Assembly: GCF_025847205.1 (NCBI RefSeq)
Contig: NZ_JAOYTH010000004.1
Location: 186,001-250,000 of the forward strand
Reading direction: 5' to 3'
From: Pararhizobium sp. YC-54
Lineage (GTDB): Bacteria; Pseudomonadota; Alphaproteobacteria; Rhizobiales; Rhizobiaceae
Length of the DNA stretch: 64,000 bases
Shown: positions 50,377 to 54,221 of the stretch, in pieces
Numbering within the stretch: position 1 is the stretch's first letter
Layout of the letters: each line of letters opens with the position of its first letter
Translations under genes and position numbers: made by a program
Notes under the pieces: generated by a model
The model's database searches: none
The model's input: the letters and a program-made list of their open reading frames with translations, nothing else
What the model was told of the DNA's origin: nothing

Positions 50377-50553
50377 GGGAAAAGCCTTCGATGAATGGAG
50401 CTGATAGAAGCCTATGTAAGATCGAATTCTGTAAATCCAAGTCTCAGTGGTGAAATGCGGCACCTGAGGCATGGCTCTCAAATTACTACGGATGTTTTTG
50501 TTTTGTTCACATTTTGCTGGCAGCGTCCGGGCATGAGTATTAAGCTTCCCACC

Positions 50554-51066
50554 ATGCACAATACGATTCGTATCATCGGTATCGATCCAGGCCTCCGGCG
50601 TACCGGTTGGGGCATCATCGATACGCTTGGCAACTCGCTGCGCTTTATCGCTTCCGGCACGGTCACTTCCGATGGTGATATGGATCTGGCCTCGCGGCTC
50701 TGCCAGCTGCATGACGGCCTGGCCGATGTGATCCACACCCATAAGCCCGACGAGGCAGCCGTCGAGCAGACCTTCGTCAACAAGGATGCGGTGGCGACGC
50801 TGAAGCTCGGCCAGGCACGCGGCATCGCCATGCTGGTGCCGGCACGCGCCGGTCTTCAGGTGGCCGAGTATGCGCCGAATGCGGTGAAAAAGGCCGTGAT
50901 CGGCGTCGGTCACGGTGAAAAGCAGCAGATCCACATGATGCTGAAAATCCTGATGCCGAAGGCCGAATTCAAGGGCAACGATGCCGCCGACGCCTTGGCG
51001 ATTGCCATCTGCCACGCCCATAACCGTGGCGGCGCAAGGATGCGCATGGCGGCGCTGGCGGGCTGA
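50554..51066 (+). CDS. ruvC: Holliday junction resolvase RuvC
   Basis: The 170-aa endonuclease resolves Holliday junctions held by RuvAB. The catalytic acids appear in [14 protein letters not shown] (Asp7-equivalent), [11 protein letters not shown] (Glu) and [14 protein letters not shown] (two Asp). [20 protein letters not shown] is the usual basic segment. The start at 50554 fits the family N-terminus; ATG 50533 is an alternative. It is separated from ruvA by a toxin-antitoxin module. Confidence 0.96.
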
Positions 51067-51073
51067 TTTGTTC

Positions 51074-51107
51074 TTGACTTGTTCTTTTGGTAAGGATATT
51101 TCTTACC
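51074..51107 (+). promoter_or_regulatory. Promoter and operator of the first AbrB-PIN module
   Basis: -35 TTGACT (51074-51079), 17-bp spacer and -10 TATTTC (51097-51102) are overlapped by a dyad GGTAAG (51089-51094) ... CTTACC (51102-51107). This is the expected layout for autorepression by an AbrB-type antitoxin. Confidence 0.6.
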
Positions 51108-51123
51108 TTGAAGGAGCAAGACC

Positions 51124-51375
51124 ATGCGTGTCACATCAAAAGGCCAGGTAACCATTCCTCGGGATCTGCGGGAACTGGCGGGCATAGCGCCCAACAGCGA
51201 GGTCATTTTCGCAATGGAAGGTGGCAAGCTCACGATCGCTCCGAAGGACGGAAAACAGGAGCTTGAAGAGCGCATTCGCCTGGAGCGGTTCCTTGAAACT
51301 TTGCAGCGCCTGGAGGGCACGGGCAATCAGGAGATTGATGCTGACAGGCTCATGGAAATGACGCGGGATCGTTGA
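51124..51375 (+). CDS. AbrB/MazE/SpoVT-type antitoxin (VapB-like), module 1
   Basis: The 83-aa protein starts MRVTSKGQVTIPRDLRELAGI...SEVIFAMEGGKLTIAP, the swapped-hairpin AbrB DNA-binding domain. A charged C-terminal helix follows (about 42-83), likely wrapping the toxin. GAAGGAGC precedes the ATG. The PIN toxin starts 5 bp downstream. The promoter dyad at 51089-51107 suggests autorepression. Confidence 0.9.
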   Translation: MRVTSKGQVTIPRDLRELAGIAPNSEVIFAMEGGKLTIAPKDGKQELEERIRLERFLETLQRLEGTGNQEIDADRLMEMTRDR

Positions 51376-51379
51376 TCGG

Positions 51380-51793
51380 ATGGCGACCTTGGTGGATACG
51401 AATGTCCTGGTCGATATTGCCGTTCGGGATCCAAATTGGCACATTTGGTCCAAAGCCCAGGTCCTTGCAGCGGTAAAACGGGGTGCGGTTGTTATCAACC
51501 CGGTCATCTATTCGGAGTTTTCCGTGCGTTACGAGCGTATGGAAGACGTCGATTATCTCCTCCCTGAAACGGACTATAGCCGCGAGAACCTGCCCTGGAG
51601 TGCGGCGTTTGCGGCAGGCGTTGCGTTTCGCAGATACAGGTCGGCTGGTGGCGGGCGTGAGCGGGTGCTGCCGGATTTTCTCATCGGCGCGCATGCCGCC
51701 ATCCGGGGGCATAGCCTTTTGACCAGAGATCCAAAAGGCTACCGGATGTATTTCCCCTCCGTCGAACTGATCACGCCGGAAACTCACCCATGA
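51380..51793 (+). CDS. PIN-domain ribonuclease toxin (VapC-like), module 1
   Basis: The 137-aa PIN protein has all four acidic positions: [11 protein letters not shown] (Asp), [13 protein letters not shown] (Glu), [12 protein letters not shown] (Asp) and [14 protein letters not shown] (Asp). VapC toxins cleave tRNA or rRNA. It is coupled to its antitoxin and ends 13 bp before the ruvA ATG, so the module sits inside the ruv operon. Confidence 0.9.
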
Positions 51794-51806
51794 AGGATGT
51801 TGCGCC

Positions 51807-52424
51807 ATGATCGGCAAGCTCAAGGGAACGATCGACGAGATCGGTGACGACCATGTCGTCGTGGATGTGCATGGCGTCGGCTATGTCGCTCATTGCTCGT
51901 CACGGACATTGTCGAAGATCGGCTCGCCCGGCGAGGCTGTCGTGCTGTTTATCGAGACCTATGTGCGCGAGGATCAGTTGCGGTTGTTCGGTTTCCTCTC
52001 AGTGCTGGAGCGGGAATGGTTCCGGCTGCTGCAGAGCGTGCAGGGCGTCGGCTCCAAGGTGGCCCTGGCGGTTCTCTCCGTGCTGACGCCGGGCGAATTG
52101 GCCAATGCCATCGCGCTGCAGGACAAGACGGCCGTTTCGCGGGCGCCGGGCGTGGGGCCAAAGGTTGCCGTGCGCATTGTTACCGAACTCAAGAACAAGG
52201 CGCCGGCCTTTGCCGGCGAAGCGAGTGCCAATATCGGATTGAAGCAGGAACTGGGCGAGGGCGTTGCCTCCGCGCCGGTCTCCGACGCGGTCTCGGCGCT
52301 GAGCAATCTCGGCTATTCGCGCGACCAGGCGGCCAATGCGGTGGCCGCGGCGCTGAAGAATGGCGGCGAGGGGCTGGACAGTGCCAAGCTGATCCGGCTG
52401 GGGCTGAAGGAACTGGCGCGGTGA
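51807..52424 (+). CDS. ruvA: Holliday junction branch-migration protein RuvA
   Basis: The 205-aa protein has an N-terminal OB fold ([27 protein letters not shown]) and the tandem helix-hairpin-helix domain ([17 protein letters not shown] and [20 protein letters not shown]). The C-terminal RuvB-contact domain ends [29 protein letters not shown] is upstream, right after the PIN toxin stop. It binds the four-way junction and loads RuvB. Confidence 0.97.
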
Positions 52425-52436
52425 CTTGGAGGAATT

Positions 52437-52468
52437 TTGAAATTTCCGCCAAATCTGATATTGTCAGC
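52437..52468 (+). promoter_or_regulatory. Promoter and possible operator of the second AbrB-PIN module
   Basis: TTGAAA (52437-52442), 17-bp spacer and TATTGT (52460-52465), with a small dyad CTGA-TATTG-TCAG (52456-52468) over the -10. Weaker match than the first module's promoter. Confidence 0.4.
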
Positions 52469-52498
52469 TAAATTTAATTTTTTCCGAAGGATCCGCCG

Positions 52499-52783
52499 AT
52501 GCAGTGGGAAATGACCATTTCCGCCAAGGGGCAAGTCACCATCCCGAAAGAGATGCGTGAATTGCTTGATCTGCGGCCGGGGGATCAATTGATCTACAGC
52601 ATTATCGATGGGCACGTTGCCGTTACACCGAAGAATGTCGATTTCAACGATCTGGCCGGTCTTTTGGGCAAGGCACCAAATGGTCCGGCCAGCTTGGAGG
52701 AAATTGGCCAGACGGTACTGAAGGCTGCGGGTGCAAATGTGACGGATGTGAAGGACGATGCGGCGACGGGCGTTGCGGCATGA
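52499..52783 (+). CDS. AbrB/MazE/SpoVT-type antitoxin (VapB-like), module 2
   Basis: The 94-aa protein reads MQWEMTISAKGQVTIPKEMRELLDLRPGDQLIYSIIDGHVAVTP, an AbrB-type domain. A C-terminal tail follows, with DFNDLAGLLGKAPNGPASLEEIGQ. GAAGGA precedes the ATG. It overlaps the toxin start by four bases. It is only distantly similar to the module 1 antitoxin, so the two modules did not arise by recent local duplication. Confidence 0.9.
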   Translation: MQWEMTISAKGQVTIPKEMRELLDLRPGDQLIYSIIDGHVAVTPKNVDFNDLAGLLGKAPNGPASLEEIGQTVLKAAGANVTDVKDDAATGVAA

Positions 52784-53184
52784 AGACCTTTGGTCTGGAC
52801 ACCAATATCGTTCTGCGGCTCATCGTTGATGATGATCCCGATCAGCGTCGTGCCGCTTTGACCTTTGGCGCTGGCCTTGGCCGGGAACACAATGCTTTTC
52901 TGTCGTTGATCAGCCTGGTTGAGCTGGACTGGGCGCTGCGATCACAATACGGATTTCAGAAAACAGATGTGGCAACAGCGATTGGCAAGCTTTTGCATAC
53001 GCGCGGATTGACTGTAGAACAGCACAGCACGGTCATTCAGGCTCTCAGGCTGGTGGAGATCCACAATGCGGATTTTGCCGATACCTTGATCGCCTGCCGC
53101 TCGCTGGACGAAGGCTGCGTGTCCGTCAAGACATTCGATAAAAAGGCCGCAGGGAAAATACCCGGAATGGAACTTCTCGCATGA
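52780..53184 (+). CDS. PIN-domain ribonuclease toxin (VapC-like), module 2
   Basis: The 134-aa PIN protein has catalytic acids in [41 protein letters not shown] and SVKTFDKKA. It is intact and of normal length. Its start overlaps the antitoxin stop and its own stop overlaps the ruvB start, each by four bases (ATGA). ruvB translation therefore probably depends on ribosomes leaving this toxin gene. Confidence 0.9.
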
Positions 53185-54221
53185 CCGATGCCGCACGTTT
53201 GATCACGCCTGAAAAGCGCGGCGAGGACCTCGATACAACGCTGCGGCCGCAGACGCTGGACGAGTTTACCGGCCAGGCGGAAGCGCGTGCCAATCTGAAA
53301 GTGTTCATCGAGGCGGCAAAGAACCGCGGCGAGGCGCTGGATCATGTGCTGTTCGTCGGCCCGCCCGGTCTCGGCAAGACGACGCTGGCGCAGATCATGG
53401 CCAAGGAGCTGGGCGTCAATTTCCGTTCGACGTCCGGCCCGGTGATCGCCAAGGCGGGAGATCTTGCGGCACTTTTGACCAATCTTGAAGACCGCGACGT
53501 GCTGTTCATCGATGAAATCCACCGGCTCAATCCGGCGGTCGAGGAAATCCTCTATCCGGCGATGGAGGATTTTCAGCTCGACCTGATCATCGGCGAGGGG
53601 CCGGCGGCACGTTCGGTAAAGATCGATCTGTCGAAATTCACGCTGGTCGCGGCCACCACCCGGCTCGGACTTTTGACGACCCCGCTGCGCGACCGCTTCG
53701 GCATTCCGGTGCGCCTGAGCTTCTACACCGTCGAGGAACTGGAGCTGATCGTCCGGCGCGGCGCCCGCCTGATGGGGCTTGGCATCACCGATGACGGGGC
53801 GCGTGAAATCGCCCGCCGGGCGCGCGGCACGCCGCGTATCGCCGGGCGGCTGTTGCGCCGTGTGCGCGATTTTGCCGAAGTCGCCAGGGTCGAAGCCGTC
53901 ACCAAGCAGATCGCCGACGAGGCGCTGACCCGGCTTTTGGTCGACAATATGGGGCTTGATCAGCTCGACAAGCGCTACCTGACCATGATCGCGCTCAATT
54001 TCGGCGGCGGTCCGGTCGGCATCGAAACCATTGCCGCAGGGCTTTCCGAACCCCGCGATGCGATCGAGGACATCATCGAGCCCTACATGATTCAGCAGGG
54101 GTTCATCCAGCGGACACCGCGCGGGCGTATTTTGACCGCAAATGCATGGAAACACCTAGGACTGCAGGTGCCAAAAGATCTGGAAGCCACCCAGTTCCGC
54201 CTGTTCCAAGAGGATGATTGA
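53181..54221 (+). CDS. ruvB: Holliday junction DNA helicase RuvB
   Basis: The 346-aa AAA+ motor drives branch migration. It has [12 protein letters not shown], Walker [16 protein letters not shown], Walker [12 protein letters not shown], sensor [10 protein letters not shown] and the C-terminal winged helix [18 protein letters not shown]. Length is normal. Its ATG overlaps the stop of the PIN toxin by four bases; no separate ribosome site is evident. Confidence 0.98.

Follow-up and report, generated by a model that had tools for sequence, protein, structure and literature searches.

Exchangeable VapBC-type modules at two positions of the ruvCAB operon in Rhizobiaceae, with a predicted LexA operator ahead of the first

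Two modules inside the ruvCAB operon

The ruvC, ruvA and ruvB genes of Pararhizobium sp. YC-54 (Rhizobiaceae) are parted from one another by two toxin–antitoxin modules, each consisting of an AbrB-type antitoxin gene followed by a PIN-domain toxin gene. We analysed the 64,000 nucleotides (nt) that contain this locus (contig NZ_JAOYTH010000004.1 of assembly GCF_025847205.1, positions 186,001 to 250,000), referred to as the window and numbered from its first letter. All genes lie on the plus strand in the order ruvC, vapBC1 (51124-51793), ruvA, vapBC2 (52499-53184) and ruvB, with the order and coordinates that an earlier sequence-only reading of the region had given; the ruvC–ruvA junction is termed J1 and the ruvA–ruvB junction J2. 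Such modules recur at both junctions in relatives, where they are swapped and lost, and those at J1 stand behind a LexA-type direct repeat (51070-51084 in the window) that overlaps the putative J1 -35 element and went unmentioned in the earlier reading. The features of the locus are listed below.

50494..50508, plus strand: LexA-like box of the ruvC promoter, GTTTTTGTTTTGTTC, one mismatch to GTTC-N7-GTTC
50554..51066, plus strand: ruvC (PF02075, 154.9 bits)
51070..51084, plus strand: internal LexA/SOS-type box, GTTCTTGACTTGTTC, exact GTTC-N7-GTTC, holding a -35-like TTGACT (51074-51079)
51089..51107, plus strand: dyad GGTAAG-N7-CTTACC, likely VapBC1 operator, found by direct reading and covering a putative -10 TATTTC (51097-51102)
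51124..51375, plus strand: vapB1, AbrB/MazE-type antitoxin, 83 amino acids (PF04014, 44.0 bits)
51380..51793, plus strand: vapC1, PIN toxin, 137 amino acids (PF01850, 39.0 bits)
51807..52424, plus strand: ruvA (TIGR00084, 195.4 bits)
52437..52464, plus strand: candidate sigma70-like promoter of module 2, TTGAAA-16-TATTGT, from a consensus scan
52499..52783, plus strand: vapB2, AbrB antitoxin, 94 amino acids (PF04014, 40.7 bits)
52780..53184, plus strand: vapC2, PIN toxin, 134 amino acids, overlapping the ruvB start by 4 nt (PF01850, 32.5 bits)
53164..53172, plus strand: GGAATGGAA, inside the 3' end of vapC2; from motif and codon conservation, the probable ribosome-binding site of ruvB and a fixed 3' anchor
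53181..54221, plus strand: ruvB (NF000868, 511.6 bits)

Both toxin scores exceed the Pfam cut-off for PIN (23.6 bits) and both antitoxin scores that for AbrB/MazE (24.7 bits), in agreement with the AbrB domain that had been assigned to each antitoxin. The catalytic acids had likewise been described as intact, and the alignments of junction toxins bear this out: D6, E46, D99 and D117 of VapC1 are present in 50/50 aligned J1 toxins, and D7, E48 and D120 of VapC2 in 44/44 aligned J2 toxins, with D101 in 42/44 (G in two). Because VapC1 scored 20.4 bits against the NCBI VapC equivalog model (cut-off 80) and VapC2 matched no VapC model, the pairs are called VapBC-type from Pfam domain and gene order. 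PADLOC matched none of the four module proteins, and a search of solved structures matched neither toxin. PIN genes are common in this genome, with at least 21 matches, 20 of them above the cut-off (a lower bound, because VapC2 is missing from that match list), and it is their placement at ruv that is striking. At the window locus, the interval from ruvC to ruvB contains no transposase or integrase gene.

The two modules are not recent duplicates of each other, since VapC1 and VapC2 gave no BLASTP alignment and VapB1 and VapB2 share 38% identity across 42 amino acids. The claim that they are not one duplicated insert therefore stands; a single duplicated insert is ruled out by the unalignable toxins and by the toxin families being specific to each junction.

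Occupancy of the junctions in relatives

The first set of 100 ruv loci from the family covers 26 genomes belonging to the genus and a further 74 chosen as the closest by RuvA identity. Each junction mostly holds either a short gap (0-281 bases) or one AbrB–PIN module of about 700 bases, which shares the strand of the operon and has an almost constant offset; the exceptions are one locus with two J1 modules (L139) and two with decayed J2 modules (L149 and L207). J1 is filled in 50 of the 99 loci with a detectable ruvC (L178 was left out of J1 counts, having no ruvC match in the stretch examined), and J2 in 46/100, including the two decayed modules, which were counted as filled by gap length. 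Within the genus, 23 of the 26 genomes have a filled J1 and 16 a filled J2. Throughout the first set, J1 modules are VapC1-like and J2 modules VapC2-like, and there is a weak association between the occupancy of one junction and that of the other (Fisher p 0.044, with no correction for relatedness). One member of the genus, the 78%-complete genome G015 (locus L126), has a ruvC and a ruvA that read as broken, possibly through sequencing error.

Beyond the family, 31 of 249 genomes of the order had matches in an alignment search, and the 29 loci examined include ruv-linked J1 modules from three other families. Named organisms with the J1 arrangement, within the family or outside it, include Rhizobium herbae, R. 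tropici, R. lentis, R. rhizogenes, Ciceribacter, Hoeflea, Pseudorhizobium, Mesorhizobium and Aurantimonas. The comparison across relatives that had been proposed from the window alone thus finds the linkage to ruv recurring across the family and, for J1, across the order.

A LexA-type box accompanies module 1

GTTC-N7-GTTC is the alphaproteobacterial LexA motif, and LexA sites have been described at alphaproteobacterial ruvCAB (PMC3323433; this and the papers below are cited from extracts of their text). The lexA promoter of the window genome bears boxes of the same kind, GAACACATATGGAAC and GTTCTTGATTTGTTT. In the first set, the exact internal box occurs in 50/50 J1-filled loci, 5-120 bases past ruvC, versus 3/49 J1-empty loci. 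The box upstream of ruvC, allowing up to one mismatch and positioned mostly at about -59, is present in 43/50 filled and 48/49 empty loci, against 8.6 and 7.9 expected from shuffles. The internal box therefore tracks the J1 module, whereas the ruvC-promoter box is common to filled and empty loci alike. At the window locus the internal box belongs to a tandem direct repeat of 11 nt, TGATTTGTTCT/TGACTTGTTCT (51064-51085), which also takes in the ruvC stop codon.

The association was also followed through toxin similarity. Among the best 80 of at least 584 VapC1 relatives (80 named loci), 35 are ruv-linked, and all 35 have an exact GTTC-N7-GTTC at -300 to -333 of vapC1, versus 0/45 of the non-ruv relatives, two of which have fewer than 300 bases upstream and many of which come from other phyla with other LexA motifs. 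The order-level control is cleaner: all 17/17 ruv-linked loci have the box between -301 and -307 of vapC1 (exact in 9, one mismatch in 8), versus 0/12 non-ruv loci of VapC1 relatives. The order-level boxes vary in their N7 spacer letters (e.g. GTTCCGCAATTGTTC and GTTTGTGTAATGTTC), and this drift with kept half-sites argues for a constraint on the half-sites, beyond that on a mere -35 element. Within the genus, 45 non-ruv PIN loci, including 14 that are VapC1-like, have no exact box in the 600 bases upstream. A VapC1 paralogue outside ruv (53% identical), at G000:C10:184815-185213, is accompanied by an AbrB gene and lacks the box, and related copies are present in many genomes of the genus.

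A direct search for the exact 15-mer, in which one position may be C or T, found it in 115/297 family genomes and its reversed control in 2. Just upstream of ruvA lie 113 of its 119 places, two of these without a detected ruvC; the remaining six have no ruvA within the stretch examined. The 74 ruv loci gathered in this way, of which 58 have a J1 toxin match and 16 none, contain the box by selection, so that our statements on box and module rest on the first 100 loci and on the VapC1-similarity, order and genus sets. Judged from its sequence, module 1 carries the conserved GTTC-N7-GTTC promoter operator by which membership of the LexA regulon is recognised. The link to DNA damage suggested in the sequence-only reading gains backing from this box at the level of sequence.

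A gene of about 300 codons lies between ruvC and the internal box in four loci (L285, L286, L230 and L231), its L285 copy matching PF11927 (haem-dependent oxidative N-demethylase alpha-like); J1 can thus accept other genes upstream of the LexA box. Two loci (L250 and L253) have a sodium/bile-acid symporter-family gene (PF01758 in the L250 copy) antisense between ruvC and the box. A hydrophobic open reading frame of about 145-155 amino acids occupies J2, alone in L278, L279 and L261 and alongside a module in L231; no Pfam match was obtained with the L278 copy.

Promoters and operators

Each module had been credited with its own promoter and a dyad over the -10 element, which is borne out in part. 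The J1 dyad is clear by eye and recurs among relatives of the same class, and a candidate J2 promoter was found by the consensus scan; the scan gave no promoter at J1, and the J2 dyad, CTGA...TCAG, has arms of just 4 bp. The scan itself is uninformative (one match in the region versus 1.6 expected from shuffles), and a repeat finder requiring arms of at least 10 reported no inverted repeat at the J1 or J2 promoter site. Operator, antitoxin and toxin types at J1 are unmixed: where all three were determined among the 50 loci, 19 have one combination and 26 the other (three loci are without an operator type, two without an antitoxin type and one without a toxin class).

Modules are exchanged at fixed positions

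Toxin classes were built from 49/50 J1 loci (L156 gave no toxin), using the ruvA-proximal module where there are two, and from 44/46 J2 loci (L149 and L203 were dropped); antitoxins were extracted from 48/50 and 43/46 loci, respectively. Single linkage at 60% identity yields three classes at J1 and sixteen at J2 in the first 100 loci. The median pair identity within the genus is 95% for RuvA and 97% for RuvB. Pair identities of VapC1 and VapC2 are multimodal, without correlation to ruvAB identity (Spearman 0.07 and 0.14). Genome G010 matches the window at 99/99/99% in RuvC/A/B, at 54% in VapC1 and at 36% in VapC2; G023 has kept VapC2 (88%) and not VapC1 (48%), and G018 has kept VapC1 (84%) and not VapC2 (36%). 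Seven pairwise DNA comparisons against the window were used to map the edges of exchange. In pairs that differ in class, identity falls just past the box and recovers to 90-97% over the final 30 nt of vapC.

A tree built from ruvA+ruvB of 25 genomes, from which G015 was excluded for its broken ruvC/ruvA reading and incompleteness, requires at least 11 state changes at J1 and at least 11 at J2. The fully supported sister pair G009/G010 differs in J1 class. In a shuffle control made for J1, 20/200 shuffles were as low as the real state labels, which thus cluster hardly more than shuffled labels do. Read from these sequences, the junctions swap modules independently, and operator, antitoxin and toxin appear to move as a block.

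Tandem loci and remnants add to this picture. L139 has two J1 modules that are 42% identical, each with its own box and with a duplicate ruvC tail between them; the 40 bases preceding the second box agree at 30 positions with those preceding the first, whereas 2000 shuffles averaged 11.6 identical positions and reached 21 at most. The incoming DNA, consisting of ruvC tail, box and module, therefore came from another ruv locus. What the earlier reading called 'repeated insertion' is more aptly seen as the repeated replacement of modules at two fixed positions, together with loss; L139 is one clear instance in which the DNA came in from a different ruv locus. In L218 and L219 the order is box, solo antitoxin, box and complete module. 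Remnants consist of box and antitoxin only at J1 in L214 and L215, and at J2 of a toxin tail in L166 and L175 and an antitoxin only in L249. In the remnant search, which covered 58 gaps at J1 and 78 at J2, 12 matches reached E <= 0.05 versus a shuffle mean of 3.8, so that we rely only on the five strong ones (E <= 7e-7). A weak toxin-tail match in L149 (E 0.03) lies next to an apparent eroded box.

Coupling to ruvB and selection on the toxins

ATGGAA/G within 16 nt of ruvB is found in 46/46 J2-filled versus 8/54 J2-empty loci. The vapC2 tail is conserved in its codons more than the amino acids alone would require: codon identity is 0.86, 0.76 and 0.86 at P128, G129 and E131 and averages 0.58 over the tail, while the 23 conserved positions that lie elsewhere than in the last 12 codons average 0.41. 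That the last vapC2 codons hold a probable ruvB ribosome-binding site suggests that module 2 is coupled to ruvB translation. The ATGA overlap at ruvB is itself undiagnostic, as an ATGA or GTGA start is also present in 53/54 J2-empty loci.

The ratio of nonsynonymous to synonymous substitution rates (dN/dS) has a median of 0.07 for VapC1 (range 0.02-0.56, 74 pairs) and of 0.095 for VapC2 (range 0.04-0.30, 26 pairs), in pairs of at least 80% identity, many with dS > 1. Both toxins are under purifying selection.

Interpretation and rival explanations

The anatomy of the locus, the association of box and module, the swapping, the losses and the purifying selection, all read from the sequences, are in our judgement probably best explained by exchangeable VapBC-type modules at two positions of the ruv operon, with module 1 behind an internal LexA operator. 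The segment vapBC1-ruvA-(vapBC2)-ruvB would probably form an SOS-inducible unit with its own internal promoter. In unstressed cells, LexA at the -35 element and the VapBC1 complex on the -10 dyad may jointly repress the J1 promoter; DNA damage, through LexA cleavage, would then lead to toxin, antitoxin and the RuvAB branch-migration motor being produced together. Antitoxins of the AbrB/VapB kind are normally labile, and for this reason an SOS burst could slow translation through RNA cleavage by the toxin while recombination repair proceeds. Most likely, then, module 1 is an SOS-controlled toxin–antitoxin pair that is made together with RuvAB and slows growth during repair; LexA binding, SOS induction and RNase activity are predicted from protein families and motifs. 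Module 2, which has no exact LexA box at its start, would be tied to ruvB translation through the last codons of its toxin. Modules are replaced and lost as units, between a LexA box that stays fixed and a vapC 3' end that nearly does, most likely by homologous recombination with the ruv loci of other strains.

Several observations weigh against this interpretation. The J1 module is missing in about half of the first 99 loci and is therefore dispensable, and frequent swapping implies that no particular toxin is required. All J1 toxins merge at 55% identity, with classes about 50% alike, and so constitute one family rather than unrelated toxins. An exact LexA box was found in 0/46 J2 promoter regions, so that module 2 does not share the operator of module 1; the consensus scan gave no J1 promoter, and codon conservation at the vapC1 3' end (0.52 against 0.41) is weaker than in vapC2. 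The shared insertion phenotype in Rhizobium leguminosarum described below could be simple polarity on ruvAB. Finally, the box stands without a J1 toxin in 3/49 loci of the first set and in 16/74 box-selected loci, two of these with a solo antitoxin, so the box may serve ruvAB instead of the toxin.

This last point is the core of the chief rival, which holds that the internal box belongs to ruvAB alone and keeps these genes under SOS control after module insertion, the toxin pair being a tolerated passenger. We give it somewhat less than an even chance. It would account for the box-only J1 loci and for members of the same toxin family that lie away from ruv without a box, and it has a parallel in Vibrionaceae, where an interrupted ruvCAB lost the ruvC site and SOS regulation of ruvAB was apparently kept (PMC3323433). 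Yet 46/49 J1-empty loci do without the box, which precedes vapB1 and not ruvA, and in the three tandem loci (L139, L218 and L219) every module start has its own; the toxins, moreover, are under purifying selection. Rather doubtful is the proposal that the modules are selfish addiction elements persisting in a conserved operon, spread through homologous flanks and protected because their deletion tends to disturb the downstream ruv genes. Patchy presence, frequent replacement, loss scars with solo antitoxins (L214, L215 and L249) and a probable ruvB ribosome-binding site within the toxin tail are what it would lead one to expect; by itself, however, it predicts neither the constant LexA box nor the junction-specific families, and empty J2 junctions that leave the ruvB start intact are common (54/100).

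It is improbable that ruv is merely a hot spot for many independent insertions of free mobile toxin–antitoxin units. Plasmid relatives of VapC1 and VapC2 do exist (130 and 41 records), but every one is less than 60% identical to the window toxins, J1 toxins in the first 100 loci are all VapC1-like and share one strand and an almost constant offset, and the ruvC tail in the L139 tandem marks a ruv-locus origin. Recent plasmid capture as the main origin was rejected on the same identity values. We consider it most improbable of all that the modules are inactive relics retained by chance: decayed loci occur (L149, L166, L175 and L207), but the catalytic acids are kept and dN/dS is low. More speculatively, and in our view on the unlikely side, the ruv junctions could be standing allele-exchange slots, in which the almost identical ruv genes of one genus are combined with distant toxin–antitoxin alleles that turn over independently at each slot, as at immunity-type polymorphic loci, with rare modules favoured and the slot-1 toxin acting as an SOS-triggered defence or checkpoint.

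Relation to known systems and significance

The modules share with type II VapBC systems the antitoxin gene in first and the PIN toxin gene in second place, the four acids and an operator-like dyad at the J1 promoter. They differ in that two unlike modules are fixed within ruvCAB, with a LexA box before the first and the probable ruvB ribosome-binding site contained in the 3' end of the second toxin. LexA-controlled toxin–antitoxin genes are familiar from Escherichia coli (tisB, yafNO and dinJ-yafQ, one in the dinB operon); these resemble module 1 in being SOS-induced and differ in toxin family and genomic place. In Caulobacter crescentus, the higBA toxin–antitoxin promoter has a strong LexA site, and strains with and without higBA differ by a stretch that includes this site (PMC13384398). 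higBA differs in belonging to another toxin family, in adjoining higX rather than lying within ruvCAB, and in being described, in the extract cited, as limited to one lineage (PMC13384398), whereas the ruv modules recur across an order and are swapped.

One J1 arrangement is already in print, as the R. leguminosarum vapBC pair RL3987-RL3988 adjoining ruvA, in an account whose extract mentions neither LexA control, a second module nor conservation (PMC11406972). In strain 3841, the genes listed as needed for root attachment at every pH tested include vapB, vapC, ruvA and ruvB; insertions in vapC, ruvA and ruvB fell into one phenotype class and those in vapB into another (PMC11406972). The class shared by vapC, ruvA and ruvB fits co-transcription, as far as the extract goes. 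Searches of open-licence PMC full texts yielded no paper describing ruv-junction vapBC as recurring or LexA-linked. SOS-controlled toxin–antitoxin modules and one J1 instance are thus known already; the recurring, LexA-box-linked arrangement at ruv is, as far as these searches go, new.

The roles of chromosomal toxin–antitoxin pairs are disputed, partly because many are strain-specific. Here, such modules are tied recurrently to one repair operon and to a LexA operator in several families of an order, and the filled, empty, swapped, box-only and antitoxin-only versions that exist in nature make the purpose of chromosomal pairs testable. If the junctions are exchange slots, rare modules may hold an advantage, e.g. 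against phages or against competing plasmids that carry antitoxins, and an SOS-controlled slot-1 toxin would be linked to Holliday-junction processing. The arrangement also offers an explanation for the shared vapC, ruvA and ruvB insertion phenotypes of R. leguminosarum. A core repair operon in these bacteria would have its predicted internal SOS promoter and a predicted ribosome-binding site entangled with exchangeable toxin modules.

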